The notes beneath the pieces are model-generated. The model was given only the letters and a program-made list of their open reading frames with translations, did not search any database and was not told the origin of the DNA. 64,000 bases of DNA, taken from contig CM022667.1 of assembly GCA_012295275.1 (NCBI GenBank), positions 5,645,068 to 5,709,067 on the forward strand. The letters run 5' to 3'. The position numbers were made by a program, and so were the translations under genes. The stretch comes from Chrysomallon squamiferum. Its lineage: Eukaryota > Mollusca > Gastropoda > Neomphalida > Peltospiridae. Every line of letters begins with the position of its first letter. Within the stretch, counting starts at the first letter, position 1. Shown here one piece after another: positions 21,292-61,475 of the stretch.

Positions 21292-21377
21292 ATGGATTTG
21301 AAAACAATCACTGAAGTTGCACTGCTCCTCTTTCTTCCTGCTTTTAATGCAGTTAAAGGTAACTATTGAGTATTTAT

Positions 21378-21414
<37 letters not shown>

Positions 21415-24400
21415 GTATGTATAAATATGAAAAACAAAAACAACAACAGCCATAGATCACAGTGTTTTATTATTTCTTTGGTATGTCTCTATGTGGATGA
21501 TGTGATTTTAAACTATGAGTAGTAGATAACAAGTACACAGTATGTAAACTAATATAAAAAATAAGAGATATACCTGGTATTTAATAATAATTACAGGTGA
21601 AACTACTACAACACTTGAATGTATGTACAACAAGTACACAGAACGTAAAATAACTGTTTATTAAAAATAATAGATATACCTGGTATTTAATAATAATTAC
21701 AGGTGAGGCTACTACAACACTTGACTGTATGTACAACAGGTACACAGTATGTAAAATAACTGTAATATTAAAAATAATAGATGTACCTGATATTTAATAA
21801 TAATTACAGGTGATGCTACTACAACACTTGAGTGTATGTACAACAAGTACTCAGAATGTAAAATAACTGTAATATTAAAAATAATAGATGTACCTGATAT
21901 TTAATAATAATTACAGGTGATGCTACTACAACACTTGAGTGTATGGGTGATGGACAACAAGGACACAGAACACAGTTGGTGTGTAAAGTTAGTGGTACTG
22001 TCAAAAGTGGAATTACCTTCTCAGCACCAGGAGGAACACAAGTTGTAACGTGTAACTCAGACAACACTCGGTGTGTAGGACAACCTGGTTACTCTGCTGT
22101 TGTTGACTCACAAACACAGATAACTCTAACTATTCAGTCTTTCAACACTGATACAGATGCTGGAACATGGAAATGTCAGGATGGAGGAGATGGAAATCCA
22201 TCAACTTGTACCAAAACTAAATTATGTGAGTCGTTCTGTCCACTGGTCATTATCTATGTAGTGTTATATCTTCTATATGACTTTTGTATTGTCAATATTA
22301 CATTCTAGAAATATTTGAAATCTTCAATTAAAGGGAATTGATTTATTTTCAGTGAAACAGAATGGTGTTTTAATTTTTATTGCTTAATTTTTTTAATTTT
22401 AATTTTTTTATTTATTCCTTTAATGGAGTGTTTTCATACATACGTGATTTGAGACTTGATTTCTTTCTTTTATTTTTTGTTTGTTTTTAGTGGGAGGAGT
22501 GTTTTTATGTTTCTGTTCCCTAATTTTTCTAATTGTATTTATTTATTTATTTAATTTTTTTATTGTAATAACAATCTGCAAAACTATTTATATTAAAATA
22601 GATTTTAGTTCTTTTGATTTTTTTTTTTTTAATGTAATTTGTCAGTTGAACAAATAGGATGAAATTAGATAAACATTATTTTGTATCACTGACTGTTCAG
22701 TTAAGGTAGCTGGTCTATTTCACATGAAATGGTATGATGGTAGCTGTATTTGTTTTAATTTAGATTTCTTTTTTGTAAAATGCGTCAGTTGAAAAAGAGA
22801 AAAACGAAAACAACAAAACAAGATAAACATTATTTTATATCATGACTTTCTGAAATTAAATATTCTTGTCTTCTTTCGTTTAAGCAACAGTTTATATGTA
22901 TTGATATATGGTTTCCTAATCAGAAATGAATACAAAATGAAAATGGTAAGAAAGGAAATAATTGGTATGCACAACAAAACAAACAGAAATGGAGAGAAAA
23001 CTGACAGAGACACCTGTTTCTGCTAAATCTGTATATAATAATGTCAGAATTAAATACTTTCATTATTCATAATTGTAATTCACAATCCACTTATCAACAG
23101 TTTCACTTTGGTGATTCCTAAATAATTGTACAGTAAAATGGAGGCCACTGAAAAGCAGTATTGGAATAACTGTCTCACTATCTACATGAGTTAATCAACA
23201 GAAAGAATGTGATTTGTTTAAAATGTTTCGTGAAATTCAAAATAAAAACTCCGCTCACATCCTAGAAGTGGAAACAGTGTTTATAAAGTTGCCTGAATAA
23301 TATTTATTTTACAGTAAATTTATAAATTGAAGAAATGGATGAGAAAAAGAAAGGCAGAAATAAAAAGAGAATTGTAAAAATTATCTCAAACATTTATCAT
23401 TTATAATTGTGTTGGACAAATTGTAATATCAATTGTTAAGATTTTGATCACCAAATAATAAAATATTTCTTTTCATTTCATTATTTTATTACTATTTTTT
23501 TCCCAACGATTGTCTACAGATAGATATATAAATATATTTTAGGCCAGATTAAGAAAACCCAGCTTACTGGAAATATTACCAACATTTGCAAGCCTTGTTA
23601 GTTAAAAGAGCAAATATAATATCTGGTTTTAATCCGGATTTCACTCTTTAATTTTTAATTTTATTATTCATTCTTTTCATGCCTCCTTTTTGCTTTTTTT
23701 TAATTCGTTTTTCTTACTTTCTGTTTTTTAATTCTTGATTGTGTTTAAAAAATAATATCACCTTAAGTGCAATAGTTGTAATCAGTAATTGTTATTAATG
23801 TAGAACTTAAACAAAACCATTAAATAATGATGATTATAATACAATTAAAGACAAACCAATTCTAAACTATAACAGCTAAGAAATGCAGTCAGAAAATTAG
23901 TGTATTCATGCACGAAATCCTTACTGATCTGACATGGTTATAGAATGTCCCTGTTACAAACTGTCAAATGATAATCATCTTTTTTTCCTTGCCTTTCACA
24001 TTCAGATGGTCCAGACAGTGTCAGACTGAGTCCATCATCACCTGGTACAGTTGTAGAAGGTGACACACTGACAGTTACCTGTACTTCTCTCTGTAATCCT
24101 ACATGTTCCTATTCCTGGTCACTCAACAATCAAATACTTTCTACAACTTCTCAGTTAACTCTGTCATATGTCAGTAGACAGCAGACAGGTGAAATATATA
24201 AATGTACAGCAAACAACCCGACTACATCAGTGGAAAAATCTGAGCAGTTTCAACTCTCAGTTCACTGTAAGTATTGTTTAATAATGCTTCTTTGTAGAAC
24301 ATTATCTAGTTTCAAACAAACATTTAACCAAATCTTCTACATATTTAGAAGAAATGTTTATCAGAACTGTGAACTGATATATTCAAAACAAATATTACAA

Positions 24401-25455
24401 CTAAGCAGTTTCGTTAACTTCATATATTTATCTATTTATCTATGTCAGAGATCAGAAAAAATATGTTTTAAAGTGTTTGTGCTTATATGTATTTACTAAA
24501 AACGAAACAATTATTATTTTATAAGATATAGTATTCATCTAGGTGTGTATATGTGTAAATGTTTTTCATAGAAATGCAAGAACCTCCGTATAATAATATT
24601 TTATTTGTACTTTAGATGGACCAGACAGAGTAAAAGTAAACGTGAGTTCTGCACTGACAGTACAGGAAGGTGATGATGTGGCTGTGTTGTGTGAAGCAGA
24701 TTGTCGTAAATCTTGTTCTTTCACGTGGAAGTTTGAAACTCACACAAAGTCTACAAGTGCTGTGTTGACTTTAAATGATGTAGACAAGTCACAGGCTGGT
24801 GTCTACACGTGTACAGCTGTCAACACAAACTCAAACAAATCAAATTACACAACAGTTACACTGGATGTCCTGTGTTAGTTTATTTTATTAATTAATAATT
24901 TAATTTCATTCTTTAATAATACTGTTTTTATTAGGATTAGAAAAGTCTAACCACACTGTTATAATCATGCCAGTGTAAAAGAAAAATAACATTAATATTG
25001 TGAACGTGTGTGAGAGTGTGGAATGTGTGTGTGTGTGTATGTGTGTGTGTGTGTGATAGTTAAATTCTTTTCATTTTTCAAGGCAGTCTTTTGTGTTTAT
25101 TTCGTGCTGTGGACATTTTTAATATGGTAGCTGGAACAGAAGACTTTGTTTTTTGTTTGTTTGTTTGTTACGAAAAAACAGAAACAAACAAATAAACAAA
25201 AACAACAACTTATAAATATAAAAAATGTATCAAAATGTTTCTTTTTTCCTAAACTGAGAATATGTCTTTCAGTTAACATCTATGACAGTTATGTATTTAG
25301 TTAAAATTGATTGAATTTATCATTCCAAATATTACATTAGAAGTTAGATTTTCTATCATCATAAATGTGTCTCTGTGTGGATGATGTGGGTTTAAATTTA
25401 ATATTTTATTATTACTTAGTCATCAGATTTTACCTAATCATTATTTATTTATTTA

Positions 25456-25528
<73 letters not shown>

Positions 25529-28500
25529 TTAATAGTTTACTTATTTATTTATTTATTTAATCCACCTGTCTACAATATATTTTTCTATGAATTTAACTTA
25601 TGTTACAGATCAGACTTCAATAACTTCTTTGACTTTAAACTCGAAGTCTGCAGAGATAACAGTTGATGAACTGACTCCCGTGTCTCTGAGATGTGAAGTT
25701 GACAGTAATCCAGCATCTCACATCAAACTGTTAAACAATTCACACATTCTACGTGAAGTGAAAAACTCCAAGTCAGTGGAGTACAGCTGGAATGAAGCTG
25801 GATGTCTGGATACAGGATTTTACACTTGTGAAGCAGGAAACAACATCAAGTCTGATGTCAGTCAAAGTGTGCAGCTTCTTGTTACTTGTATGTAATGTTG
25901 TAATATAATTTGTACTTGTTTAATAATATTGAAAGATATCACTTAAAATATGGGTCATTCTATGTCACATCAAGTTTTATCCCATTGAAATCGGATGTGA
26001 AATGCTACATTATTTCTTGCATTGGATCATTAGTTTTGGAAATGTCATATAATAATAAAGTCTGGATTTATTCGTTAAGAAAGGGTAACAGCTCACTTCT
26101 TTCTCGGTATCCCAAGGATAAACCTGAATAAGCATGGCATCTTCAAAATATCTGTGTGTGTGTGTGTGTGTGTGAATGTGTGTGTGTGTATGTGTGTGTG
26201 TTAAAAGTTGATATTCTCAGCCTTTTCTAATTCACCTTAAATTTGAACTTGCAGTCATTTTAGCTACAACATTCAAACGAAATCCAAAATGAAAAAGTGT
26301 TATTCATTTATTTATTTAGTTTGATTTTTTCATTCCAAACCAAAAGACATTATAAGTGTTTTGCTTTAGGAATTTTTATTTTCTAAAGAAAGTAGATTCC
26401 ACATATTATTTTTGTAAATTAAATCAGCTCCAGTATTAAGTAATAAAAGATTAAAATGAAAATACTTTTTTATTTTGAAATCATCTTTATTGTTATTTAA
26501 AAAAAAAAATCAAAAATCAATAAATATATCAAAAGAAAAAAAATCTTTCATTGTTATGTCTTCTATTTTATAGTATGTTAAATTACTGCTATAATAGACT
26601 TAAATTTGTATAAGTAAATATTTGTTTCAATACAGTTCTTATTGGTAACAGTAATCACTAGTTTCACTTTTTCAGGTTCACCAAGACTTGATCATCGAGT
26701 TACATTTCAGGACAAATTTGCTTCTGTAGAAGATGGAAATGTAACTCTACACATTTCTGTGATTGCCAAACCAGTTCCAACATTTTTCTGGTATAAACTC
26801 ACAGATGTAAACAATAAAAGTCTTGGATCTACACAACCTGTACTCATTACAAATGTGTCTGTTATAGGTGAATATAAACTGACAAAAGTGAAACAAGAAG
26901 ATTTTGGAATCTATCAGGTTGTTGTGTCAAACAGGGAAAAAAGAACAGATCTTTCTGTGAAACTAAATCTTACTGCAGAAGGTAGCAATACGATACTGAT
27001 GCATTGAATTATTATTATTATTGTTATTTTAAAACTAGAAATTAATTCCTATTGATCAACTCCAATATTAATAGACAGAGGAATACTATTTATTTACTTT
27101 ATATGTATTATTTTGTTTAAACGTACTAAATATATATATTTTTAATTATGTAGTTTTCGGAAGTACGTACTAAACAGCTGCATGTTTTCATGGATAAACA
27201 GATTCTTACAAATATTACTTTTCAGCTTCAAGCTTAATTTTACTCTTTGCTGTTACACTTTTTAATGTTTACTTATCTGCCTTGAATGAAAAACATCTGA
27301 ATTAAACCTTTTTTAATTTATTTTTTTATATAAAATAATTGTTTATATTTTTTAATTATCTTATTTTATTATCTTTTTTGTTTTCACTAGTCAGTAACCT
27401 TTAGCTGCCTGCTGAACATATTTATTAATTGCTTAGCATTTGCATCTCTTTTTCAAACCCTTGATAACATTTCCTCATCCTCTTTGCCACAAGATGGGAA
27501 GTTTTTAGAAAACATTTATCGAAACAAAATTATAAATGTAGAGAACAAAATTATAAATGTATTTAACAAATTTATAAGCAGATCACTGCTGACACTATTT
27601 AACAATTTTGTTACGTTCTAAACTCAAAGGTCCTCCAACTGTTCCCTCTGACGTGAGAACTTGGATCACTGGTTCACATTCAGTGTCAGTGTCTTGGATA
27701 GAAGAATTTAATGGAGGATCACAACAAACATTTCTTGTACAGTATCGAGCAGACACAACATCTGAGTGGACAAATCTCACTGATCAGTTTGGTGAAAAAG
27801 GACTTCACACAAATCACACAGCAGAGATTTCTAGTTTACAACCAAACACCAGATATCTGATTCGAGTTTTAGCTTTTAACAAATTTGGTTTCAAAAATTT
27901 TACTAAGGAAGAGGAATTCTTGACAGAAGGTAAATTACCATCATTGCTCTTTATTTTACAGTTTTAAATTTAAAAATAATTTTAGTATTAATAAAAAATA
28001 AAAATATAATTTTAAGTGTAAATGACACACATTTGCAAAGATACAAAGTGTATTTGTTGCCTAACTAGTGTGGATCGTGAAAATGTAGCTATTCTTCTGA
28101 AAATGCTATTATCAGCTCTCAGCAGTTTTTACTGCAATTAATTCTAGCTTGTGTTTAACCAATTTATTAGACATTCAGAGAAACATTTCATTACGAAAAT
28201 TTACATTTCTGTTATTTGTAAATTTGTTAGCAGCAAAAGATCCTGTGGCAGTTGCAGCTGGTGTTGCTGGTGCTGTTGTTGTTGTTGCTGTGGTTGTTGT
28301 CCTGCTTGTTGTCCTGCTTGTGTTGTTCCTCAGACGAAGAAAGCAAAACAAAACACCATCTGACAGAGCTGTTACAGGTAATTTACTTTTAATGTTACAA
28401 TGTTAACTTTTGCTTATTAATCACATTAGTGATCTGTAATGCTTTCACATTAATAGGAAAATCAGTGTGCAGAGATTGATATGAGTTTTGCCAGAAAGGC

Positions 28501-29313
28501 TTAACATTTCTTTAATGACAGGTAAGATTTCTCCAAGAGTAATTGAATTTTATTCAGTCCTTTATTTACTTAATTAAGACAAAAAAGAAAAATGTATAAT
28601 TGTGTACCAAGTTCTGTAAAATTGCATTTGATAAATAATTATTCCAAGGAATTTCTATTAGAATGAAATTTTTTGTTATTTTCATGTTATTTTATTTTTG
28701 TTATAGCTAATGCTGTCCTTATGACTACTGACTGATATTATTGAAAGAGACCAGTAATTCCCTCTGAGTTTATATTGTTATACTACCATTTTATGTTTCT
28801 GTTCATTACTTTCTAAGACTAGGAAAATGATGTTAAATGAAAAAAAAACAGAGAAAAGAAATGAAATAACTACTTATTTTTAATTTTACTTTAAAACACG
28901 TAGATGGAAAGCACATCTATGGAAATGACAATATGGCCTTTGTTGAGGACAAGAAGCCAAAGAAGCCACAAAAAGAAAAAACTGAGGTACGTAAAATATA
29001 TTTCCTTTATTCTTAATTTAATTTAATTACATATTTCTTAGTTACAGTTATATCAGAATCTCCACCAAATTGTATTTAAAGGAACAAAAAATTAAAAATA
29101 AATAAAATAAAATGAATTTCATTGTTTTTACAGCCAGCAACAGCTAAAAGAAGAAATGAACGTCAGCTGGTTTACACTGAAGTTGAGTTTACAAATGAGA
29201 AAATGTCACAGCCCATCCACAAAAGAGAAGAACCCACAGTGTACATTCAGATTGACTTCTCAAAGAAAGCACCACCCTTGTGTGATGATGATAATCAACA
29301 GAACACAAAATAA
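21292..29313 (+). CDS. Five-Ig + FN3 transmembrane receptor with ITIM and ITSM tail (inhibitory type)
   Basis: Ten coding exons: 21292-21358, 21917-22225, 24006-24266, 24616-24873, 25609-25887, 26676-26981, 27630-27929, 28231-28377, 28904-28986, 29134-29313. This is 2190 bases, about 729 residues, in frame throughout; internal junctions are phase 1 except the last (phase 0). Signal peptide MDLKTITEVALLLFLPAFNA. Ig1 (23-125) is a cysteine-rich V-like domain; Ig2 (126-212) and Ig3 (213-298) contain CNPTCSYSW, YKCTA and YTCTAVN. Ig4 (299-391) ends FYTCEAGN. Ig5 (392-493) lacks both canonical cysteines (VTLHISV, IYQVVVSN). FN3 spans 494-593. TM is about 599-627, made almost only of A/V/L/G, followed by RRRK. 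The tail has IYGN, then LVYTEV (ITIM, Tyr684) and TVYIQI (ITSM, Tyr707), 23 residues apart. Known ITIM/ITSM proteins recruit SH2 phosphatases (SHP type); that role here is inferred. Ig4-FN3 nearly match the minus-strand ITAM receptors. An alternative acceptor at 28234 would drop one residue. Confidence 0.88.
21597..21916 (+). repeat. Tandem copies of the intron/Ig1-exon boundary
   Basis: Three upstream copies of the real exon start (acceptor TAATTACAG plus GTGA-CTACTACAACACTTGA) begin at 21597, 21703 and 21810; the true exon begins at 21917. The period is 106-107 bases. Each copy diverges after TGTATG into TACAACA-GTACACAG, so none encodes the Ig domain. Confidence 0.9.
25457..25526. repeat. 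(AAT)n microsatellite
   Basis: A pure AAT array in the intron before the Ig4 exon of the plus-strand receptor. Confidence 0.95.
25600..27929. repeat. Block shared with the minus-strand receptor at about 51.8-53.97 kb
   Basis: The exons for Ig4, Ig5 and FN3 and much of the introns between them match, in reverse orientation, the corresponding part of the intact minus-strand receptor (51794-53957). Intron examples: the sequence at about 25915-26045 reappears reversed at 53530-53650, and that at 27390-27510 reappears at 52145-52260. Homology ends sharply after FGFK in the FN3 exon. This is best explained by an inverted segmental duplication maintained or refreshed by gene conversion. Confidence 0.8.
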
Positions 29314-33648: not shown

Positions 33649-36600
33649 TCAACCTGTGACTTGTGAGTTTTCATACACAGTGAGTACAGAGTATGGTGAG
33701 TCTTTTCTAGCTTCCAGTGATGAGTAATTGTTTGTAGTATCCGTGTTTCTGTCAGTATCTGAAAAATAGTCTTGATTATAGAGTTACACAGTAAAATGGA
33801 ACTGTAGTTCCCACAATATTACTAATAGGATAAAAATAAAAATAATAGTAATATCAACATAGGCAGCAGTAGTAGCATTTTGTGTTGCTTTCGTTGTTTT
33901 TATATAAGATTATTGACAAAACATAAAATAATACTTACATTACTTTTATATAAATTACGTCTTATCACAGTTACTGTTAACATGTAATAACCAAGCTGTA
34001 CACTTTCACCGATTATTTTCTTTCTTATTAAAATGTATCAATGGAACTTTATTTTTTACCTTTTCAAGCTATATTTTACCGTAAATTCTGATCACATCCT
34101 TTACTGATAATAAAGACGATATTATTACTGTAATACGACCAAAAAGGGCATTGTATTTCTGTACATGATTTCTTAGAAATTTTGAAAACAAAAATTACAG
34201 GCGTGTTTCTCATTTAACTGACCAGCATCACAGAAACTCTTTAACCTGTTACAATTTGTATTTATATAACATAAACAATGTATACTTCTACTGATTATTT
34301 TCCTTCATTTTAAAAATATCAGCTAAATCATAAAAACAAATGAAGTGTAAACATTTATTTTTATTATTTTTTATTTATGTTTTGCTGTAGATTTACCACT
34401 TTATTCTTTACCACAATTCCGGATCAAATCCTTCATATGTTAGGTATTTAATATTAGAACAATAAAATAAGACTTTGTACTTTAGGTATGTCTCAGTTAT
34501 TCTGTAAACAAAGAAAGCAGACACACAGCATGTCTCTGATTTAACAGGCAGCATCACAAAAACTCTTTAACCTGTTACACTTTGTATGTATATACTGACC
34601 TTGATTTTGTTGAAGATCATCATAGAGAGAAGATTCCTGTACTCCAGTGTTAAACTGTCTGAAACAAACAAACAACATCAAGAACAAAAAGAACAAGAAC
34701 ATAGCAACAACAACAAGAACAGAAACAAAAATCAATCAGAAGTGGAGAATTCTTGAATTTTAGTTTATTTAAAAGTTTATATTTGTGTGTGTCTGCGTGT
34801 ATATATTATTATAATTATTTTTAAATTACCCATAATATTAAGATATCAAAATGATATTGTTTATGCAGAAGTAAATCAGGGTTGAATTGTTGAGAAACTG
34901 ATCAGATTTTCAATTATTTTTTTAATTGTTCATTTTTTATTATTATTATTATTATTATTTTTTTTTTTTTTTTTTTGTAACTTTCATAACTTACCTTGAT
35001 ACGTACGTGCTCTCAGGTTTAGATTGATCTAAAATGAGAATAATCTTGACAATCTAAGAAATATAAAATAATTCCTATTGATTTTTGTTTTACAAGAATT
35101 AAATATGAATTTTGTTTCTTTATTTATTTTGATAAACAAGATTTATAAAATTGAAAAATTTAGGAGAAAGCTAAGAATGAACATTGTTTTTTTATGTAAT
35201 ATTTTAATGACGGCAGTGTATTTTTAACATTTACCTTTTCTCTTCCAGCAGAAAAAGAAAACGATTGCCCCAATGAAAAGTTCTGTTGCCAGTAAAATTC
35301 CAATTCCAATTCCAATTCCTGCTCCTAGCAAAGTATCTTTTCCTTGCGTACATTCTGAAGATGACAAAACTGAAAAAAAGAAGAAAAAAAAGAAAAGAAA
35401 CAAACATTTGTCAACTGCACACGTAAATACAGTCACAGCAGGTTCCATGTATCATGATACTAAACAGGACTTCCTTTTATTTATTTATTTATTATTGTTA
35501 ATTATTATTATTATTATTTTTATTATTATCATCAAATGTATTAAACAACAACAATGATAGTTGAGATTTACTATCATAAAGGGAAGGGTTATTTTTTTTA
35601 TACAAATAGTCATAAACACTCCAATATAGTTGTTTATTAAAGTTTTAAATTAATCACATTTTAAATGAAGGTTCTTTGTTACACGATTCTGTTCTGAAAT
35701 ATCCTTTTAATTTTTACTTTCTAAAAATCATTAACGAAATTATACAGGGCAAGGAGAATAGAAAGCCATTTTTATTTGTTTTTGTTGTTTTATATTGTAA
35801 AACTATACAATATACATTAGATATACATCGAGAGTATTTGAAACAGATTGGACTATTATTTCAGGAAAAATCTGTTAAAAGCGAAAAGTATTTTTATTAG
35901 TATTTCAAGTACTTCACATAGATAAGTAATTTAATTCATTTTTCTTACCACAGATACAAATCTGTTGTTCTTTCGTTGAGATTTTGAATCCAAACTTATT
36001 AAAAGCCAAAACTCGAATCAGATATATCTGGTGTTTGTAAACTAGAAATCTCTGCTGAGTGATTTGTGTGAAGACCTTTTTCACCAAACTGTTCAGTGAG
36101 ATTTGTCCACTCAGATGTTGTGTCTGCTCGATACTGTACAAGAAATGTTTGTTGTGATCCTCCATTAAATTCTTCTGTCCAAGACACTGACACTGAATGT
36201 GGACCAGTGGTCCAAGTTCTCACGTCAGAGGGAACAGTTGGAGGACCTTCAAGTGTAGAACATTACAAAACTGTTAAATAGCACCAGTAGTGAACTGTCT
36301 ATAATATATAATCTACATTTATAGTCTGCTTTGAAAAACAGTAAAATATTATCAAAATTATCCTATTAGAGGAAACAGTAGGAGAACTTTCGAGTTCTAA
36401 AATGTTATGAAAGTTTTAGAAAACATTTCACAATGCAAAACACTTCACATTTATTCTTAAATAGCAGCTAAGAGCTACAAGCATTTCTGATTAAGAAAAC
36501 AAATAGAAGAGGAAGAAAAAAAAGAATTTTATTTCTTGGAATCAAACCACACAGCCAAATATTGAGAGATATAACAGCAAAAAGCAGAAATACACTTGAA

Positions 36601-36702
36601 GCTGAAACTAATACATATGCCTTTAAATACATTTTCCATCAATCCTAAATATGATCACTAGGAAGCAAATTTTAAACATTAAAAAATATAAAACATTTTT
36701 TA

Positions 36703-36705
<3 letters not shown>

Positions 36706-36754
<49 letters not shown>
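36706..36754. repeat. (AAT)n microsatellite
   Basis: A pure AAT array just downstream (in gene sense) of the Ig5 exon of the broken receptor. A shorter run sits at the matching place (52582-52613) in the intact copy. Confidence 0.95.
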
Positions 36755-37241
36755 TGTCAGTGCATCAGTTCAGTGATTTTACCTTGTTGAGTAAATCTTA
36801 GTTTCACAACCAGATCTCTTCTTTTTTCTCCATTTGACACAACAACCTGATACATTCCAAAATGTTCTTGTTTGACATTTGTCAGTTTACATTCACCTAC
36901 AGCAGACACATTTGTAGTGTTTACAGGTTGTGTAGATCCAAGACTTTTATTGTTTACATCTGTGAGTTTATACCAGGTAAATGTTGGAACTGGATTGCCA
37001 ATCACAGAAATGTGTAGAGTTACATTTCCACCTTCTACAGAATCAAATTTGTTCTGGAATGTAACTCGATGATCAAGTCTTGGTGAACCTGAAAACAAAT
37101 ATTAGTTATGAATAAGGAATTTATTCAAGCATTTATTTTTATCTATAAATTGAATGTTTGTGTCCTACAGTAATATTTATCTAGCTGTAAGGCCTTATTA
37201 TTTATAGGGCTCAATAGGCTAAACGCTACTGGACTGTCAGT

Positions 37242-37438
37242 TTTTTTTATTATTTTTATTATTATTATTATTATTACGATTATTATCATTGTTATTATTA
37301 TTATCATCATCATCATTATTATTATCATTGTTATTATTATTATCATCATCATCATTATTATTATCATTATTATTATTATAATTATTATTATTATTATTAT
37401 TATTATTATCATTATTATTATCATTATTATTATTATTT
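37242..37438. repeat. Compound (ATT)n/(ATC)n microsatellite
   Basis: Alternating blocks of ATT and ATC/TTG triplets, with two nearly identical sub-blocks of about 50 bases. Isoleucine- and methionine-rich open frames across it are artefacts. A GATA run follows at about 37579-37610. Confidence 0.9.
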
Positions 37439-37577
37439 GTTTAGTCTTGTTTTTGCTGAGACTCAATTACTGCTACAGGCTGGTAAAAGACTGAAAGACT
37501 AAAAACAGGTGTTTGGGTTAAAATCATCCTGTTATTTTAAGTAAATAACATTTTAATCATTTAATTATGAGTATTAT

Positions 37578-37611
<34 letters not shown>

Positions 37612-41207: not shown

Positions 41208-41227
41208 AATAATAATAATAATAATAA

Positions 41228-42703: not shown

Positions 42704-42756
42704 ATAATAATAATAATAATAATAATCATAATAATAATAAAAACAACAACAATAAC

Positions 42757-42806
<50 letters not shown>
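42704..42806. repeat. (AAT)n microsatellite
   Basis: A long AAT array with AAC and ATC interruptions in intron 1 of the broken receptor. Confidence 0.95.
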
Positions 42807-42808
<2 letters not shown>

Positions 42809-43414: not shown

Positions 43415-43574
43415 CTGAGTGCACTCCTAACTACCTGAGTGAACTCCTAACTACCTGAGTGAAATCCTAACTACCTGAGTGAACTCCTAACTACCTGAGT
43501 GAACTGCTAACTATCTGAGTGAACTCCTAACTACCTGAGTGAACTCCTAACTACCTGAGTGAACTCCTAACTAC
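43415..43574. repeat. 20-bp minisatellite, eight units
   Basis: Eight consecutive units of CTGAGTGAACTCCTAACTAC with few substitutions, in intron 1 of the broken receptor. The intact copy has a single related unit near 60124 (CTGAGTGAACTGCTGACTG), so the expansion happened after the duplication. Confidence 0.95.
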
Positions 43575-44175
43575 ATAGAAAATGACACTGAACTCCCGTC
43601 TATTACACAGTCAGCTTGGGAAATTATTAAGAAAATTCCTATTAACAATTAATAGAGAAGAACAGGAATCTGTATTCTTATCCATTTATTATAATATAGT
43701 CAGCCACATAACACGTTAGTGGTATGAATTATTAAATCATATTTTTTAAATATAAAAAAGACACATCTAGCACTAGGATGTATATCAATATATACAAAGG
43801 TCAGTTGTTACATTAATGTTACAGAGGTTTGATTAGTTAGATCCTAGGCTGAGTGTGGGAGATAACTCTTTCTACTGCCTGTCAGTATATTTATCCCTAG
43901 ACTGTATACAGGCATAAGAAAATAGTAATTAAACTGATTCGTGTAATATCATTAAAAGATTATTCGATTAAATGGTTATACATCTTTAGAACATAATAAA
44001 TTTGAGACAATTAAGATGAAATAATAAGCACATTATTTGTTATTAAAGTTATTAAAGACTAAAGTTCAAAAGTGTATCAAAAATGGGCTATATTTCTATG
44101 AAGATTTGCTAAGTAAGAATAAAGAAATTATCAATGGTGACTAATAATATTATTTATTTATTTACGTATGTTATT

Positions 44176-44177
<2 letters not shown>

Positions 44178-44247
<70 letters not shown>

Positions 44248-44250
44248 TAA
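44178..44250. repeat. (AAT)n followed by (ATT)n, self-complementary
   Basis: The AAT array turns into an ATT array at about 44220, so the two halves can pair as a hairpin. Confidence 0.9.
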
Positions 44251-44801
44251 TTTGTGTTGTTGTTGTTGTTATTACGTTACTGATGATGATGATGAAAAAA
44301 TTAAAATATCAACAAAATTATGCTTGATCAGTAATAGATGTTGTTTAAGTATGATCAGTTGAGTAGGCTTAAACAACATCCGTGACTCAAAATGAATAAA
44401 AGTATCTAAACTGCAATCAAAGAGGAACACTGGTCTGAGTACGTGACACACGAAATCAGATTTTAATTTTTACTTTTCAGAGAAATATCTTTTAATCAGA
44501 AATATGAGACCGATAACTGATAGTTTTTATTTAAATGTCAGAAATGTTTCAGTTTCATATGTTTCAGTATAACTCTATTCACTAAAACATTAACAAAAAT
44601 AAAATTAAAATAAGGAAAAGGAGGTAGCTATCGTGAGTCAGAATAAAAGTAAAATAATTTTCACAGTTGATAGGCAATCAAGATTGAGCTTCAAGAAGAT
44701 TTTTTAACAGTTTCTGTAAATTTACCTGAATACGCAACACTTTTCAAGAACAACACGACTAAAATCAGTTTCTTATCGACAGCAGAAAATATCGCAGACA
44801 T

Positions 44802-50266: not shown

Positions 50267-52581
50267 TCAACCTGTGACTTGTGAGTTTTCATAGACAGTG
50301 AGTACAGAATATGGTGAGTCTTTTCTAGCTTCCAGTGATGAGTAATTGTCTGTAGTATCCGTGTTTCTGTCAGTATCTGAAACATATTCTTGATTATACA
50401 GTTACACAGAATATAATTATACTAGTAGTTGTAACAGTATAAAGAAGTAAAACAGTAAGTAACACAGTTTCTTCTCGCTGTACTAGAGATCACTAATAAT
50501 ATTTAAAATAATAACATGTGTTGTGTTATTTTATTTTGTTTGTTTGTTTGTTGTTGCTTTTTTAATTCTCACAAATTACATTTCATGAGCAAATTAAAAG
50601 CAATAAATGTTAATATAAAACATAAACAATGTATACTTCTACTGATCATTTTCCTTTAGTTCAAAAATATCAGCTAAATCATAAAAACAAATGAAGTGTA
50701 AACATTTATGTTTATTATTTTTTTTAATTTTATTTTTTTTGTAGATTTACCGCTTTATTCTTTACAACAATTACTGATCAAATCCTTTATATGTTAGTCA
50801 TATAATATTACAACAATAAAATAAGACTTTGTACTTTAGGTATGTCTCAGTTATTCTGAAAACAAAGAAAGCAGACACACAGCATGTCTCTGATTTAACA
50901 AGCAGCATCACAGAAACTCTTGAATCTTTTACACTTTGTATTTACATACTGACCTTGATTTTGTTGAAGATCGTCATACAGAGATGATTCCTGTACTCCA
51001 GTGTTAATCTGTCTGAAACAAACAAAACACTGAGAACTCGAGAATTATTGAATTTTGGTTTATTTAATATATTTCACATCTGTGTGTGTGTACGTGCATG
51101 AATACCTATGTGTGTATAGTTTTTCGTCCGTAATAATTTCTTTTCTTTTCCAAATACCCTTTTGACTAATTAGCATAATATCTATTTTTCAGTTAAAACG
51201 AAAACGACTTACACATTGTGTTTCTATTTCTTCCTTAAATTTTCATAGCTTACCTTGATGTGTACGTGTTCTCACTTTTAGACTTTTCTAAAATAAAAAA
51301 TAAATATTCAGAATATTAGAAATGCGAAATAAATCTTATTCATATATGTTTATATATGTTACTTCTTTATTTTGATAAAGAAAATTTATAATATTAAAAA
51401 TGTTGACAGCTCAAAGCAAAGAACATTATTCATTATTGGTTATACAAATTTTTTCAGTGTACTTGTAAAGTTTACCTTTTCTCTTCCAGCAGAAAAAGAA
51501 AACGATTGCCCCAATGAAAAGTTCTATTCCCAGTACTATTCCAATTCCAATACCAATTCCTGTTCCTAGTAAACTATTTTTTTCTTGCGAAAATTCTGAA
51601 TATTAAATAAATGAAAAAATATATTAGACATGTACAGTATTAGCTGAGATTTACTATGATAAGATGCAGATTACTTTTTATGTAAACAATTACAAACACA
51701 CCAGTATAGTTGTAAATTAATCACTTTTCAGATGAAGGTTCATTGTTGCACGAATCAGTTCAAAAACATGAATTCAGGTTGTTTTTTTATTACCATAGAT
51801 GAAAAGATGCTGTTCATTCGTTAAGGTTTTGAATCCAAATTCATTAAAAGCCAAAACTCGAATCAGATATCTGGTGTTTGGTTGTAAACTAGAAATCTCT
51901 GCTGTGTGATTTGTGTGAAGTCCTTTTTCACCAAACAGTTCAGTGAGATTTGTCCACTCAGATGTTGTGTCTGCTCGATACTGTACAAGAAATGTTTGTT
52001 GTGATCCTCCATTAAATTCTTCTGTCCAAGAAACTGACACTGAATGTGGACCAGTGATCCAAGTTCTCACATCAGAGGGAACAGTTGGAGGACCTTTGAG
52101 CTTAAATATGTTGACTGCATTTATAATTTTGCTTTGATAAATCTTTTCTGAAAATGTCCCATCTTGTGGCAAAGAGAATGAGGAAATGTTATCAAGGGTT
52201 TGAAAAAGAGATGCAAATGCTAAGCAATTAATAAATATTATCAGGCAGCTGAAAGTTACTGACTAGCTGACAGCAAAAACAAAATGATAATAAAATAAGA
52301 CAATTAAAACAAAACTATTATTTAGATTTTTTTCACTCAAGGCAGATAGCTAAACATTAAAAAGTGTAACACCAAAGAGTAAAATTAAGCTTGAAGCTGA
52401 AAAGTAAGAATCTGTTAATCGATTAAAACATGCAGCTGTTTAGTAGGTACTTCCGAAAACTATATAATAAAAATATATATTTAGTACGTATAAACAAAAT
52501 AATATATATAAAGTAAATAAATATTTTTCCTCTGACTATTAATATTGAACTTGATCAAAAGGAATTCATTTCTTGTTTTAA

Positions 52582-52615
<34 letters not shown>

Positions 52616-55600
52616 TACAAGTTTGATGTTTTTACCTTCTGCAGTAACACTTAGTTTTACAAAAAGATCTGTTCTTTTTTCCCTGTTTGACACAACCACC
52701 AGATACATTCCAAAATCTTCTTGTTTGACATTTGTCAGTTTATATTCACCAACAGCAGACACATTTGTAGTGAGTACAGGTTGTGTAGGTCTAAGACTTT
52801 TATTGTTTACATCTGTGAGTTTATACCAGGTAAATGTTGGAAATGGATTGGCAATCACAGAAATGTGTAGAGTTACATTTCCACCTTCTTCAGCAACAAA
52901 TTTGTTCTGAAATGTAACTCGATGATCCAGTCTTGGTGAACCTGAAAAAGTCAAATTAGTGATTACTGTTATCAGTAAGGACCATATTAAAACAAATATT
53001 TACTTATACAAATTTAACTCTATTATAACACTAATTTAACATGATATAAAATAGCAACACATAAAAATGACATTTTTTTTAATGTACTTATTGATTTTTG
53101 ACTTCTGTTAAACCACAATAAAGATGATTTCAAAATAACAAAGTATTTTCATTTTAATCTTTTATTAATTACACTGGAGCTGATTTAAATTACAAAAATA
53201 AAATGTGGAGGCTACTTTCTTATTATTTCTTTATGAATAATAACAAAAAAGACTACTAAAGCAAAAACACATAATTTGTTTTTCATTTTTGATTTCTTTT
53301 GAATGTTGTAGCTAAAATGACTGCAAGTTCAAAATTAAGGTGAATTACAAAAGGCTGAGAATATCAACTTTTAAAATATATATATACACACACACGCACA
53401 TAAATACACAGTCAAACACATTTTGAAGATGCCATGTTTATTCAATTTTATTCTTGGGATACTGAGAAAGAAGTGAGCTGTTACCCATTCTTAATGAATA
53501 AATCCAGACTTTAGTGTATGACATTTCCAAAACTAATGATCAAATGCAAGAAATAATGTAGCATTTCACATCAGATTTCAATAAGGTAAAACTTGATGTG
53601 ACATAGAATGACCCATATTTTAAGTGATATCTTTCAATATTATTAAACTAGTACAAATAATGTTACAGCATTACATACATGTAACATTAAGCTGCACACT
53701 TTGACTGACATCAGACTTGATGTTGTTTCCTGCTTCACAAGTGTAAAATCCTGTATCCAGACATCCAGCTTCATTCCAGCTGTACTCCACTGACTTGGAG
53801 TTTTTCACTTCTCGTAGAATGTGTGAGTTGTTTAACAGTTTGATGTGAGATGCTGGATTACTGTCAACGTCACATCTCAGAGACAAAGGAGTCAGTTCAT
53901 CAACTGTTATCTTTGTAGACTTAGAGTTTAAAGTGAAAGAAGTTATTGAAGTCTGATCTGTAACAAGTAAAAACACTGCAAAGTATTTTGTTAAATACAT
54001 TTCAACATTAAGTAACGAATATTTTGGCAGATCCAGTAGTTTTAATCATTCATACTGGGTTGTTAACAAATCATTAAATGTTTTTATATGTAACATGATA
54101 TGTTTAAAAACAATTTTAAAGTTCTCTTGAAAGTATATGTATTTATTTTAAAATGCAGAAAACAGTTTTACTTTTCACAGATTGTATTTCTGTATTAAGA
54201 ACCAAATCAATGCTTTGAAGGAGACTCTGAATTCAGGTGGCATTCTTGTTGTTTTAACTCTAAAAACCAGTGTTGAATTTTAGCAGATACAGAAGTATGT
54301 GGATGTCAGACAGTGAAGCAAATTTGAAAGAAAAGAATCAACTAATTGAAATGAATCATGTTTATAAAAAAATTGAAGTCCTTGAAGGAAAAGGATATGC
54401 AGTTAATGAATTGATGAAGAATGTTCTAGAGACAATGTAGTTAGAAACGGAGTCTACAAGATAACAACTGAAATTCTCCTGTGTAATATCAGACTGAAAT
54501 AGAAAAATAAATAAATATCATTTGAACACAACCTGAAAATAATTATGTATGTATGTATGTATGTATGTATGTATGCATAATTGGCTGTTTATACAGGCTG
54601 AAATAAAGCATAAGTCACTTTTAAATTATTTACATTTAACAGTGATTAACATATAGTAAATTTAATTCATCGACTGTTATCTTTGCAGACTGAGTCTAAA
54701 GTCAAAGATATTAATAAACCATGATCTGTAACAAATAAACCATTACTGAAAATAAAAATTATGTTTGATAGAAAATTCAGGTGAAACTCTTTTTAAAAGT
54801 GTCCAACAGGTGAACTGATTTATTTTGATGAAGAATTACAGAGCTAAAAGGATGATGTCTGAATTTAAAAATTGTTATAAGTTCCTCTTTGGTATGTTTC
54901 TGTCTTCGTCTTTTTTTTTTTCTTTTTTTTTCTTTTTTTTTTTTATCTTTGTAATATAACCAGCCTATATTTATTTATTCAATCACTTATTTATTTATTA
55001 CATTTTCTATGTTTTCAAGTCGGTAAACTCAACATTATTAGAAATGTATATCTCAGATAATATAAAAAGTTTAAAATAAGTAAAACTATTATAAATGTGT
55101 TCACATTATATTTCTGAATGTATTTGATTTTGATGAATCGTTCAGAATTGAATCTTTTGTCACCATTTTCCTGTCTTTATGTTTCCTTTTATCCAAATTT
55201 TTTCTTTCGGTTTTTTTCTTTTTAACTTGTATATATACAAGTTAAAAAGAAGAAAACGAAAGAAAAAACCTGGATCTACATATATATTCTTTTTCTTTTA
55301 ATAAGCTTTCCTGCTTTCGTTTTTAATGTGTATAAAATACAGTACTTTTATTCAAGAACATCATTCATACCTTTATTTATTTCTTTGTTAAACTAATATT
55401 AAAGTGCAAATATAAATCCTGTTTGAAAATCAAATTCTCTAAGTTTACTTACACTGAACATCCAATATAACAGTTTTGTTTTTTGACTTGTTTGTGTTTA
55501 CATTGGTGACAATACACACACAAACTCCAGCCTCTGTTCTGTGTATTTGTGTAAAAGAAAGTACAGCATCATTTATTTCCTTTGTCTGACACTTCCACTT

Positions 55601-58600
55601 GTAAGAGCAGACTTCATCACAGTCTGCCTCACACAAAACAGCCACGTTTTTACCTTCTACTACCTGTACTGGTGAACTTCTGTTCAGTTTAATATTTTCT
55701 GGACCAACTGAAAATACAGATAAATTAATTAATAATGATTGCTCTCAGTACTAAAATACTATACATTAATATATGTGTGTGTGTGTTCCCAAAGAAGAGA
55801 GAAATGTTTTATTTAAGGATGATGATGACAAAGAAAAGAAAACAACATACTTTGAATTGATTCATTTGTGTGTTATTTTATTTGTATTTTTATTTTTTAC
55901 CAATTTTAAGTAACAAAGTAAAATGCATAAAAAGGATTCAGCTACCAAGGATCTAGTACTGTTATTATTTGTAGCAGAGGAATACTCTATTAGAAAGTGG
56001 ACACATTTTGTTGTTCATTGAAAAATATTTTGTTTCAAAGTACGTGCATTTCTAAACAAAGAAGTATGTTATTATCCATTTCTCTAATAATCCTGTTTTA
56101 ATACAAATTAAACAAAAATCAGATTATTGCTGCTTCTGCAAACAACCTTGAACTTTTTGTTTTGCTTTGTAAATATCAAGCAAATTCAAAGAAACATCTA
56201 CAACTGTCAGTATGTAATCTTAATTAAATTCAGTTTGTGACGCAAGAAAACTGAAATATGCGAATATTTTTAACAATATTATTTTTTGTTTTATTTTGAA
56301 TGCAGCTATTACTGGTCGGTCATCTATCAACAACAACAACAACAACAATAATAATATAAAATAATTTGAAAACATACAAAAAATTAATTTAGATCAGTTA
56401 TAAATAAATACATTTCTAAGATTTTTTTAAATAAAACTCACAGTGTACTTTCAGAGTGAAACTTTTAGTGAGAGATTTGGCTGAGACTCTGTTAGTCACA
56501 GTACATGTGTACTTCTGTCCTGCCTGGTTTCTTCTCACATTTGTAACACTGAGCTCAGACCCTGACTCAGTCTGTTGATTGTTAAGAGACCAGGAAAACA
56601 AACATGGCGGCTTGCAGACAGCAACACAGTTTACATTCAAATCATTTCCTTCTTCAACATTTCCTGCAGAAGCCAGCTCTACACTGTCTGGCCCACCTAA
56701 GAATAAAATTAAAATAATAATAATAATAAAAAAGAATTCTGCTACTGCTACTAATAATAATAATGATAAAATTAAGCATGTGATCTTTTAATTTGCTAAA
56801 TATAACTTCCATTAATGACCATGTGTTAAGGTGTAAAATAAAAAAACATTAAAAAAACAATTTCCGCTTTTATAACAAAGAAATGTTTTCTAGAACTATG
56901 CTAATTTTTAATTTCAATGATGGTTTAACCTGAGACAAAAGTTGCGTTAGAAATGCGAGGTAGGACAAAGACCCCAGTTAGAAAACAATATAGGACAAAA
57001 GACACTCCATACTGTTTCTCATCTGAACTTTTGAATTGTTTCCATTCTGTTAAATCTGTCAAGATTTTATCATTAATATTTTCAATTTCCTTTTTTGGGA
57101 GTGACAATCTATATATTATTTATTTGCTTTCGGAAATTACAGTCTGTTTTCAAACATACATTATTTCATTATGCTTTGATATAACATGTCATTTGAAACT
57201 GTATCCTTAATCCTAATTATGATTATTACTAATTAATTATGTTGGTTAAACATATTAAATTGATAATCATGCCATTATTATTCTGATTTCGATAAAGAGA
57301 TGTAGTATGTATAATTTAAGCAGTTTGTAGCAGAGCTGTTTTTATCTTTGGGTGGGCAGTTTGTCAAACATTGTTTTCATGCTGTTTTTCTCTGGGGGCT
57401 TTTGTTCTACAAAAATCCACTGGGGAAGCTTATGTCCTACAAACTATTTAATCTTATCTATACACATCTCCTTTGAATTACACAATCACAGACAAACAAG
57501 ATTTTCAGAATGGCAGATTTTTTTAGCTGGAGCCACAGGTTTGTAGTCAAGAAAAGAAAAATAAACTATTTCACTGAAAACTAGCACTATTTGTAAATAA
57601 GAGATTATTAGGAAGTAGATCTAATCTTCTGAAATGCACCGTTAATTTTCTCATTATTTAATGTATTTCAACCTAGTAGTTAATAATACAAATTAAACTT
57701 AACACTAGCATAAACTAAACTATTAATAAACCTAAACTCTGATTATTCACCTGTGTTTGTTTGGTGATCAGCTGTTTTACTCCTGTACAGGTATTAATTA
57801 TATTGTACACCTAACTATTTTTTGATTCTTTAATAAAATAGCAAAATAAATATCAAGTGTTTATCAGCTGATACAATTTTCTTTTTTTCTTATCTTTGAT
57901 CTTCTTGCAGTATTTGAAATTTATCAAAGTGCAATTAATACGATAGCTAAAAAATTAAAACAATAATTAAGTAATTAATAAATAATAATAATAATAATAA
58001 TAATAATAGTAATAATAATAAATAACATTAAAATAATTATAAATAAAAAATGTCTTTCTTCCTTGTCCGTTTGATTGAAACTGTACAAAGAAATGTTCAT
58101 TGTTCAAAAATATGTACAATATAAATAACCAGTTATATGTACATTAACACTGCAGAAAGAAATAATGTTGACATTACACAGATGTATGTACATCAACATT
58201 GTATAAAGATATTTTCATTATAAAGTAAGCAATGTATTGGTCATTTCTCTTCAAAGCAAACAAAAAAATAACACATCAAAACAGTACATGACAGTCTATG
58301 ATTTTCAATTTTAATAAGGATAATAAAAATAAACATAATAAAGAAATCTTAAAACAAATTACATTAATAAAAAGTGTGATTCTTTCAGTATATTACAATT
58401 AAACTAAATTTGTGCTGCCAGTCAGATACACTAAATTTAATTGTTATATTTATCATTCACTGTTTCAGGGAATATAGTTAAAGTTTAAATTTGTTTATGA
58501 ACAGATTTTATTTACTTACTATAATTAACATCTTTGTTATAAAAATATAATTATTTACTTACTGCTCATTTCTAATCTCAGTGTGTTACTGGACATTCTA

Positions 58601-61475
58601 TCAGTATTCAGTTTACAAAACCAGTCTGCGACATCCTGATCTGAAACTTTGTTAATTGTCAGAGAATAATTCTTAGTGGTTGATAGTCTGCTGTTTGTCC
58701 CATCTCCACACTCTACAGAATAACTCTGACTGTCAGCTGGAGGATTAAATACAGAACACTGATCTAATTTCTGTTTGAGTGAAGCAAAACTCCCACTGCC
58801 ACCATCTTTATAAAATAGTATTAAGTCATCAAGATTCTCAGCACCTGACACTGTACAAGTCAAAGTAAACTGTTTGTCTTTGACTAAATGAGATGAAGAT
58901 CCAGACAAAGTCAGTGAAACACAATCTGTAAAATAAAAGATAAATTTGTTTCTTTTCAGTATATTTTTGTTCCTTTGTTTGTCAGTTTTTTTTTTACTTA
59001 ATTTTTATTTAATTTTTAATTCTAAGGATTCTTATTAACATTTTACTGCCTTTCATTTTTGTTTCACTAAATACATATTTTCTTTCATGATAATATTATT
59101 TTATTTGTAAGTGAAAATGTCATTGTTAAATAGCACATTCTGGTTGCTCTTAATAATTTTCCTTGAACATACAAAGATAAAAATTGATAAGAGATTTAGA
59201 ATTTGTATTTTTCTAATATAAAGTCATTTTCTAAATAACATTTCTTTTTTTTTTATCAGAATGAAAAGACGTGTATGAAACTTAAGACTTTATTTTTAAT
59301 GTTGCATTTCACTGAACCAAATCAGAGACACAGATTACAAGTACAAAGTGAAATGATCAGAAACTAGAAAACTTAAGTTGATGTTACTGACTAATGTAAA
59401 TGAATTTTAAAAGCAGATCTTTACAATTTATGTTTTAATGGGCACTGGTATTTAGTGGGAATAACCCAGTGGGGGTTGTCCCCCTTCATACAAATTATTT
59501 CCTTAAACAAAATCCTGTTGAAAAAAACAACAGCAAAAAAAAAAAAGTAAACAAATAAAATCAAACAAAATAAAATAATGTTAACAATAATAATAATAAT
59601 AAAGTAACCCTGGTTCGATATCTAAAATAACCAGATTTCTAGAATCACAGCTGTCACATTTGGAAGACAGATTTCAGTGAGATTTGCCAGAGTTCAGTTT
59701 GTGCACATTTTTGTTTTATTTTGTTTCTTCCTCTTCACCTTTTGCAGTTTGCTTTAAATATTTTTTTAAGAACTTTAATAGCAGTAACATTGAAAATTTT
59801 GGTGAAAGGGGTTTCAGATTTGTATTTCCTTCTGTGTTAAATTATTAATTACATTTTTTTATTAAAACAATCATTTTTCTATGAATTTAAAACATAATTA
59901 GTTTTATCAAATGGAACACATATACTTTTGAAAACAAAAAAAACCCTATTAACATATCACACTCTAAATTTAGATTTTTGTAAACAAGTCTGAGACAATT
60001 ATTTTTAATTTTATGTAAAAGATAAACTGAACATAACAGGATACAGTGACACTGAAACTCATATGTAACTAATTTCTACAGTGTCCTCTCATTTGTCACA
60101 CATCTGATAACAACACATCTCATGGCTGAGTGAACTGCTGACTGTATTGTCTCTACCTAGTACGGAATAATGGACTCATCTTCCTGTAGGTTATAGAGTC
60201 AGCTTAGGGAATAATTAAACAAACCCCTACTAACAACTGAACACAAACACTGAACAGATATTATGTTAACATCCATAACATTACACATTCAGACACAACA
60301 CAAAGCTAATATGAATGATACATGGAGCTCTAGGGCATATATTAGAGTGTTAGAGTACATATCAGTTTATACATGTGTGCAGCGAAGTTAAATTATAGTG
60401 GTTTGATTACTTAGTCACTAAGCTGTCTAGGGGAGACAATCCTTTCTAATGCCTGTGAATATATTTATCCCTAGACTATACACATTGATAATCAAACAAC
60501 AATTAAACTTTTATCTAAACTGTGCAATATCTTTAAAACCTTCTCTTTTAAATAATATTTTTAGACAATTAAGATGAAATAATAAGTAAAATATGTTTTG
60601 GTATTAATTATTAATTCTAATAGAATATCAAAAATGGCTTATATTTTTGTAAAGATTTTATCAGTAAAAATAAATAAATTATCAATGATGATAGACATAA
60701 AATTAAATATTTATTTGTTTTTCATGTTATTTTAGTCTTAAAAATAATAATAATAATAATAATAATCAAATCAAAAATTAAAATGTAAAAAAGTGTATCA
60801 AATCTTTTATAAATATCAGAAGTTTGTACTAATAAATAATTCTTTTCTGCAATTTGTGAATATTTTAAAAATTACTACATAACAATTAATTATTTAATAA
60901 CAGATAAAATGTTTTTAGCTAAATTATTTTCACAGGCAGAAGTATTAAATGTAATTATGTATTCATAATTTAAATGTGACCAAAATTATGCCTGGTTACT
61001 AACAGATGTTGCTGAATCCTACAAAACTCATATTTATCTCAAAATTAATAAATGTATCGAAAACTGTAATCAGAGAGGAATATGTCAGAGGATGTTACAG
61101 ATCAAATCAGATTTTAATTCTTACTTTTCAGAGGAATATCTTTAAACCTTGAAATAATTATAGAACATTTAATTAATAGTGTTAATCTTATTATTATTAT
61201 TATTTTAATATTAAATTAATTTTCAATTTCACATGTTCTACTTTAATTCCATACTTCAAAAAAAAAAAATAATTATAAAACAATAAATAAATAAATTAAG
61301 GAAAACGAGGTAGCTACTGTGAATGAGAATAAAAGTAAAATAATTTTCACAGCTGACAAGCAATCGAGACTGAGAGTCAAGAAGTTTTAACAGTTTCTGT
61401 AAATTTACCTGAATACGTGACACTGTTCAAGACGAACACCATAAAAATCAGTTTCTTATCAACCGTCGAAAACAT
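50267..61475 (-). CDS. Five-Ig + FN3 transmembrane receptor with ITAM-spaced tail (activating type)
   Basis: Eleven exons (minus): 61409-61475, 58563-58925, 56442-56696, 55453-55707, 53679-53957, 52636-52941, 51794-52093, 51476-51595, 51254-51287, 50954-51012, 50267-50376. This is 2148 bases, about 715 residues, fully open. Signal peptide from MFSTVDKKLIFMVFVLNSVT. Ig1 V-like (23-143) has CTVSGAENLDDL and WFC plus a second Cys pair (DQCSVF, VECGDG). Ig2 (144-228), Ig3 (229-313; extra Cys in GVCVCI), Ig4 (314-406), Ig5 (407-508; no canonical cysteines), FN3 (509-608). TM has GTGIGIGIGIVLGIELFIGA with a mid-membrane Glu, then CWKRK. Tail: YTS, SLYDDL (Tyr672), DNYSSL (Tyr691), SPYSVL (Tyr702), TVYENS (Tyr708). 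Tyr691 and Tyr702 form YxxL-x7-YxxL, the ITAM consensus that binds Syk-type tandem SH2 domains; SLYDDL and SPYSVL also fit the looser ITIM pattern. An activating role is inferred. It is the intact twin of the broken copy at 33.6-44.8 kb. Confidence 0.9.
55197..55270. repeat. Imperfect 74-bp palindrome
   Basis: The sequence is centred at 55233/55234 on AACTTGTATATATACAAGTT, with purine/pyrimidine arms extending to about 37 bases per side and few mismatches. The matching intron position in the sister copy (about 39628-39665) has only one arm. Confidence 0.85.

Follow-up and report, generated by a model that had tools for sequence, protein, structure and literature searches.

Does a gastropod genome encode receptors that, like vertebrate paired receptors, read similar ligands with opposite outcome? 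The balance between immunoreceptor tyrosine-based activation motifs (ITAMs) and immunoreceptor tyrosine-based inhibitory motifs (ITIMs) is the logic by which vertebrate natural killer cells and phagocytes are controlled, and an initial annotation had proposed the paired pattern for a 64,000-nucleotide stretch of the Chrysomallon squamiferum genome (contig CM022667.1; hereafter, the window). This window contains a plus-strand receptor gene (the plus gene) and two related minus-strand genes (genes A and B) for proteins with immunoglobulin (Ig) domains, a fibronectin type III (FN3) domain and tyrosine-containing tails. On balance, we lean towards a different answer, namely modular gastropod receptors of the Ig superfamily with exchangeable heads, stalk and tails and with ITAM-like and ITIM-like outputs, and not a head-matched pair.

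Gene models were built by hand from open reading frames and splice sites. In the plus gene and gene A, no exon contains a stop, every intron is of the GT-AG type, and the entry phase of each Ig and FN3 exon is 1; the order is a leader, Ig1 to Ig5, FN3, a transmembrane segment and a tyrosine tail comprising two (plus gene) or three (gene A) cytoplasmic exons. Ten stretches were compared with Pfam: all six exons of the plus-gene ectodomain, Ig1 to Ig3 of gene A and an orphan Ig1 exon. In the plus gene, Ig2, Ig3, Ig4, Ig5 and FN3 reached a curated cut-off, as did Ig2 in gene A; Ig matches below it were obtained for Ig1 of both genes and for Ig3 of gene A. In gene B, Ig4 contains a premature stop, FN3 is frameshifted, and one cysteine each of gene A's Ig2 and Ig3 is missing, whereas the tail exons are open in their own frame. 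A tblastn search of the window with 24 relatives (21 from Gigantopelta aegis and three others; E at most 1e-3) revealed no exon outside the sets collected in Table 1.

The tails were assessed with the ITAM, ITIM and immunoreceptor tyrosine-based switch motif (ITSM) patterns as commonly defined. In the plus tail, LVYTEV is a strict ITIM and TVYIQI an ITSM/ITIM-like motif. The tail of gene A, YSSLEARKDSPYSVL, is of the form YxxL-x7-YxxL, with YSSL-x7-YSVL followed by a YEN site and with SLYDDL upstream. Among 200,000 shuffles per tail, an ITAM arose in 0.26% (gene A) and two ITIM/ITSM-type motifs in 0.13% (plus gene), the patterns having been fixed only after the motifs had been seen. The ITAM frame of the last exon requires a 34-nt exon (51287-51254 in gene A, 35028-34995 in gene B), and residues matching this exon are present in the G. 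aegis proteins P0003 and P0004, which supports the frame. The frame obtained without it (ILTETRILQ..., no ITAM) was rejected, since the G. aegis proteins have the ITAM frame and the matching extra residues. Values of dN/dS on four exon copies were not separable between the ITAM frame (0.17–0.84) and its rival (0.58–0.97) and are unused as support. Opposing ITIM and ITAM cytoplasmic motifs are, as sequence motifs only, present in the cluster. The annotated ITIM and ITSM of the plus receptor, the five Ig domains and one FN3 domain of both receptors and the opposite-looking tails on one receptor scaffold are thus confirmed; of the minus-strand receptors said to bear YxxL-x7-YxxL tails, gene A is open throughout, but gene B is broken.

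Protein searches with gene A and the plus gene, in which the scored set was the 8000 candidates sharing most words, yielded 31 and 29 proteins, respectively. With gene A, 21 of the 31 came from the vent snail G. aegis (39–58% identity; best E 8e-206 over 95% of the query); with the plus protein there were 13 from this species, all within the 21 (best E 2e-210 over 89%), the others being mainly from fishes, with one Haliotis and one Lineus protein. The closest relatives found are hence 21 predicted proteins of G. aegis (P0001–P0021), and the supposed invertebrate origin of the cluster agrees with these gastropod relatives. The window genes share the similarity and domain order of this gastropod Ig5-FN3 family, several G. 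aegis models being without at least one domain. A YSSL-type tail occurs in four of the 21 models (P0003, P0004, P0013, P0019) and a YEGL-type tail in six (P0001, P0005–P0008, P0016); one has another tail (P0017), and in the other ten the tail is absent or short or the end is unrelated. The strict YSSL-x7-YDVL arrangement with a YEN/YDN site is retained in P0003, P0004 and P0013 (E 5e-22 to 5e-17 within 47 fetched proteins), and gene A, not the plus gene, belongs with these three to a YSSL-x7-YxVL-x2-Y[ED]N class. The plus tail resembles that of P0037, a nemertean Ig-FN3 protein with several more YxxV-type motifs (39 residues, 38–41% identity, E 3e-5 or 6e-5 in two settings, equalled by 0 of 2000 shuffles), a match found only within the 47 proteins pre-chosen as relatives.

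Both kinds of head are found with both ITAM-like tails in these models. We distinguish two classes of Ig1 head, alpha (plus gene) and beta (gene A), and the seven G. aegis models with a classifiable Ig1 and a YSSL or YEGL tail show all four combinations: alpha with YSSL in two (P0003, P0004), beta with YSSL in one (P0013), alpha with YEGL in two (P0005, P0007) and beta with YEGL in two (P0001, P0016). Given the plus-type head on the ITAM-like tails of P0003 and P0004, head class does not predict tail class.

Could these be adhesion or neural receptors of the nephrin, NCAM or contactin kind, with tails that bind Grb2/Nck-type adaptors or drive endocytosis and with an incidental likeness to ITAMs and ITIMs? 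The relatives bear source names such as nephrin-like, NCAM-like and hemicentin-like (P0010 and P0014 are CEACAM5-like), and the plus protein and its FN3 domain also match contactin, titin, Dscam and NCAM chains. Of the 65 solved-structure sequences matched by the plus protein, a CEA chain ranks first, followed by titin, FCRL5 and contactin, an order that bears on orthology to vertebrate CEACAMs but can be accounted for by general Ig superfamily likeness; both heads have their best solved matches in antibody variable domains (E 1e-4 and 1e-3), matches that are weak and favoured by the abundance of antibodies in the PDB. In addition, YxxL can also serve as an endocytic motif, and the gene A tail has a YEN site. 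However, the many copies in G. aegis and in the window, the mosaic introns described below and the broken copies would look more like an immune-type family than like single-copy adhesion genes, the ITAM spacing is retained in three G. aegis proteins, and the double ITIM-like tail recurs in a nemertean; we therefore consider the adhesion explanation unlikely, albeit one to be taken seriously.

Heads and stalk of the two open genes were then compared. Protein identity between the plus gene and gene A is 25, 44, 48, 93, 81 and 88% for Ig1, Ig2, Ig3, Ig4, Ig5 and FN3, respectively. The Ig1 domains, which had been described as different, are without significant similarity (E 0.28; E 0.11 in a second comparison), so that the similar distal ligand-binding domains by which paired receptors are recognized are not found in these two genes; Ig4, Ig5 and FN3, described as nearly identical, are indeed alike, but only to the extent of these percentages, and the intermediate Ig2 and Ig3 had gone unmentioned. 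Ig1 to Ig3 of the plus gene are nearer to their best fetched relatives, each from G. aegis (54–60%), than to gene A (25–48%), whereas its Ig4, Ig5 and FN3 are nearer to gene A (81–93%) than to the best G. aegis match (59–75%).

Introns carry the same mosaic. Global intron alignments overstated identity in DNA this rich in AT and were replaced by three-way alignment and BLASTN. By BLASTN, two of the nine comparable introns of the plus gene and gene A are homologous, both inside the stalk (100% and 84% covered); the same two introns of gene A are only 4% and 14% covered by gene B matches. Across the ten introns of genes A and B, Ig3-Ig4 is shared in full and three are shared in part (leader-Ig1 58%, FN3-transmembrane 77%, second-third cytoplasmic exon 64%); coverage is 35% for the first-second cytoplasmic exon intron and 20% for that between the transmembrane and first cytoplasmic exons, and Ig1-Ig2, Ig2-Ig3, Ig4-Ig5 and Ig5-FN3 are only 3–14% covered. 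The Ig and FN3 exons of gene A (51794-58925) and gene B (35949-42505) are 91–97% identical in DNA. In several places, such near-identical exons lie between non-homologous introns, as if copied into different gene backbones. At three-way aligned sites, gene A agrees with gene B upstream of Ig4 (448 sites, against 35 for plus with A) and again after FN3 (138:34). Agreement of the plus gene with gene A prevails in the Ig4-Ig5 (284:47) and Ig5-FN3 (145:23) introns, where, gene B being non-homologous, the count says only that the plus gene and gene A are homologous. The switches occur at both ends of the stalk, within introns. The simplest reading of these patterns would be the exchange, in either direction, of a stalk block between opposite-strand genes, with exon-sized exchange elsewhere; the two head classes are proposed to be older than the split from G. 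aegis. The annotation of the cluster as a rearranging one is supported.

A true pair in the vertebrate sense would have the plus and minus genes bind one ligand via the shared Ig4-Ig5-FN3 stalk and send opposite signals. We judge this improbable. The stalk is the similar part, a pathogen or self-protein could bind it, and the tails look opposite; however, the distal Ig1 domains show no significant similarity, G. aegis models have both heads on both ITAM-like tails, and CEACAM pairs keep their N domain alike (PMC2832619). The annotated vertebrate pattern of similar ligands is therefore not supported, the shared part here being the membrane-proximal stalk: since the distal Ig1 domains lack significant similarity while the stalk is shared, the heads predict different ligands. 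Least probable of all is a cluster of mostly decaying duplicates with gene A as sole working gene and the plus tail as a chance fusion, for, although gene B is broken, fragments lie around and the G. aegis matches offer no ITIM/ITSM tail, the plus gene has ten clean exons with matching phases and a tail whose two motifs are rare in shuffles and which has a similar nemertean counterpart.

Modular receptors with exchangeable parts are thus the reading that we prefer. A bolder version of it, put forward tentatively and without our quite expecting it to hold in full, takes head, stalk and tail as separately exchangeable exon cassettes: exchange would keep one common stalk across the genes of both strands, while two old kinds of head would be combined with three or more kinds of tail (ITIM/ITSM, YSSL-type and YEGL-type), which would invert the vertebrate scheme.

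Several points weigh against modular receptors with opposite outputs, beyond the endocytic use of YxxL and the preselected sample behind the nemertean match. Sites in the stalk exons single out no pair (plus=A/A=B/plus=B 7/8/3, 16/13/10 and 13/16/4), and diversifying selection was not significant (Fisher P 0.81, 0.38 and 0.22). An ITIM/ITSM tail occurs in none of the 21 G. aegis relatives, and a protein search with the plus tail alone gave five candidates, none with an E up to 10. The YEGL type, with YAKM in its second half, is ITAM-like and not a strict ITAM; the tail of P0005 has lost the second tyrosine, that of P0008 is altered in both halves, and that of P0019 consists of four repeats, of which three have Phe in place of the second ITAM tyrosine (these Phe repeats keep a hemITAM-like half and the YEN site). 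Haliotis P0032 retains YSSL and YSQLKIYEN without the seven-residue spacing. The G. aegis sequences come from gene prediction, which may have misjoined tandem genes; P0013 is without Ig3 and Ig4, P0016 is without Ig4, and Ig1 of P0007 is cut short. Finally, the gene A tail also fits the ITIM consensus twice (SLYDDL and SPYSVL; at least two such matches arise in 1.7% of shuffles), because of which the motif alone cannot fix the sign of its signal; for ITAM-like CEACAM tails, too, internalising versus activating is left open (PMC2832619).

If the modular genes are expressed as modelled, the Ig1 head would meet the ligand, Ig2-Ig5-FN3 would form a rod, and the tail would carry the signal in cis, with no adaptor. 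Likely partners of such tails are Syk, SHP and Grb2. The gene A tail (YSSL-x7-YSVL with YEN) may be phosphorylated by Src-family kinases and would then recruit Syk and Grb2-type SH2 proteins, leading to activation or phagocytosis; the plus tail, with its ITIM and ITSM-like motif, would restrain the cell by way of a recruited SHP-type phosphatase. As their heads differ, the plus receptor and receptor A would read different ligands, their signals being summed in the cell and not competing for one ligand. Exon-sized exchange would keep the stalks similar among genes but leave heads and tails distinct or join them anew. Should the cassette version be true, a lineage could, by moving exons, turn an activating recognition head into an inhibitory one, the inverse of the vertebrate paired scheme, which keeps the head and varies the tail. 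ITIM and ITAM-like tails on a shared scaffold in a gastropod-type cluster, together with the relatives in a symbiont-housing vent snail (its symbionts being intracellular) and the similar ITIM-type tail in a nemertean, would open two questions to test: whether this logic is ancient in Lophotrochozoa or arose anew, and whether it serves symbiont acceptance.

Table 1. Receptor genes, exons and fragments in the window (positions counted from its first nucleotide).
Feature	Position	Strand	Evidence
Plus-strand receptor gene, 10 exons, 729 aa	21292..29313	+	Open spliced frame, GT-AG, Pfam Ig/fn3
Plus Ig1 exon, head class alpha	21917..22225	+	36-54% identity to Ig1 of P0003, P0004, P0005, P0007, P0017
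Plus Ig2 (24006-24266), Ig3 (24616-24873)	24006..24873	+	Pfam, spliced frame
Plus stalk: Ig4 (25609-25887), Ig5 (26676-26981), FN3 (27630-27929)	25609..27929	+	Two introns homologous to those of gene A
Plus transmembrane exon	28231..28377	+	Hydrophobic stretch, then RRRK
Plus cytoplasmic exon 1 (HIYGNDN)	28904..28986	+	
Plus cytoplasmic exon 2: LVYTEV (ITIM), TVYIQI (ITSM/ITIM-like)	29134..29313	+	Motifs; similar to nemertean P0037 tail
Gene A, 11 exons, 715 aa, open throughout	50267..61475	-	
Gene A leader exon	61409..61475	-	
Gene A Ig1 exon, head class beta	58563..58925	-	44-51% identity to nine G. aegis proteins, 31% to Haliotis P0032
Gene A Ig2 (56696-56442), Ig3 (55707-55453)	55453..56696	-	Ig2 above, Ig3 below Pfam cut-offs
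Gene A stalk: Ig4 (53957-53679), Ig5 (52941-52636), FN3 (52093-51794)	51794..53957	-	Two introns homologous to those of the plus gene
Gene A transmembrane exon	51476..51595	-	
Gene A 34-nt cytoplasmic exon, sets ITAM frame	51254..51287	-	Matched by G. aegis tails
Gene A cytoplasmic exon 2 (SLYDDL)	50954..51012	-	
Gene A cytoplasmic exon 3, YSSLEARKDSPYSVLTVYEN, ITAM-like	50267..50376	-	
Gene B, exon set as in gene A, broken	33649..44801	-	Stop in Ig4, frameshift in FN3
Fragment C: further ITAM tail exon	2668..2775	-	
Fragment C: FN3 exon fragment	3753..4016	-	
Two inverted tail exons (4053-4109, 4635-4736), adjoining the FN3 fragment	4053..4736	+	
Orphan Ig1 exon, head class beta	15891..16316	-	50% identity to P0012; no Pfam match at E 0.1
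Fragment D: start of further ITAM tail exon, window edge	63941..64000	-	

The window has a G+C content of 28% (18021/64000), and Rfam and tRNA scans of it returned nothing; the genomes of Chrysomallon and Gigantopelta are at 34.48% and 37.45% G+C (PMC7736800). At 2668-4736, the minus-strand FN3 fragment faces the two inverted plus-strand tail exons, with another tail exon beyond, a local rearrangement. A tandem duplication of ~1.15 kb, 92% identical, lies at 17372-19669. Tandem units of ~107 bases (21528-21945, plus strand) repeat the splice acceptor and first codons of the alpha-type Ig1 exon, with acceptor-like words at 21584, 21690 and 21797 and at 21904 before the Ig1 exon itself; a similar array, inverted, is found 3' of gene A (48220-48483, minus strand), where tblastn gave no full Ig1 exon.

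Ig receptors with ITAM/ITIM-type tails are already known in invertebrates, namely oyster CgIgIT2, Hydractinia Alr, Botryllus fester/FcoR and Dscam. CgIgIT2, here compared by description only, is a mollusc receptor with five Ig domains, a transmembrane segment and an ITAM, reported to recognize microbes and to signal through ERK, but no FN3 domain or ITIM counterpart is described there (PMC11999971, section 15). In Alr and fester/FcoR, invertebrate receptors again compared by description only, the tails have ITIMs and ITAMs or hemITAMs, and some FcoR loci swap motifs by splicing; unlike the window genes, FcoR has an ectodomain of a V-type Ig, a sushi and two C2 Ig domains. The role of these genes is in allorecognition (PMC12065747). 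Arthropod Dscam is an Ig-FN3 receptor whose tail can include an ITAM (in Daphnia, an ITIM or ITAM), but its diversity arises via alternative splicing of one gene and not from a gene cluster (PMC6851185). The snail GRC/PTC2 regions are gastropod clusters of polymorphic single-pass transmembrane genes tied to parasite resistance; in the main text of that source, however, “fibronectin”, “cytoplasmic” and “tyrosine” do not occur, and “immunoglobulin” occurs once, in a general remark (PMC7494358).

In G. aegis, a “CEACAM5” family is listed among the expanded immunity-related families, with one mention in a figure legend and no occurrence of “ITIM” or “ITAM” in the main text (PMC7895826); it may be the same as, or overlap with, the window family, two G. 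aegis relatives being named CEACAM5-like. Likewise, 251 “H-2 class II A-U alpha-like” genes are reported only in G. aegis (PMC7736800); they could belong to this or a related family of Ig-domain genes and owe their name to weak similarity. No published description of the tails of this gastropod Ig5-FN3 family was found in the literature searched, most subscription papers lying outside its scope. In vertebrate paired receptors, the distal ligand-binding domain is shared and kept alike by gene conversion (PMC2832619; PMC5112662). The CEACAM1/CEACAM3 type resembles the window in its single-chain Ig receptors, its ITIM/ITSM versus ITAM-like tails and a cluster shaped by gene conversion; there, however, the distal N domain is alike, whereas here it is the stalk that is alike, the heads differ, and the ectodomain contains an FN3 domain.

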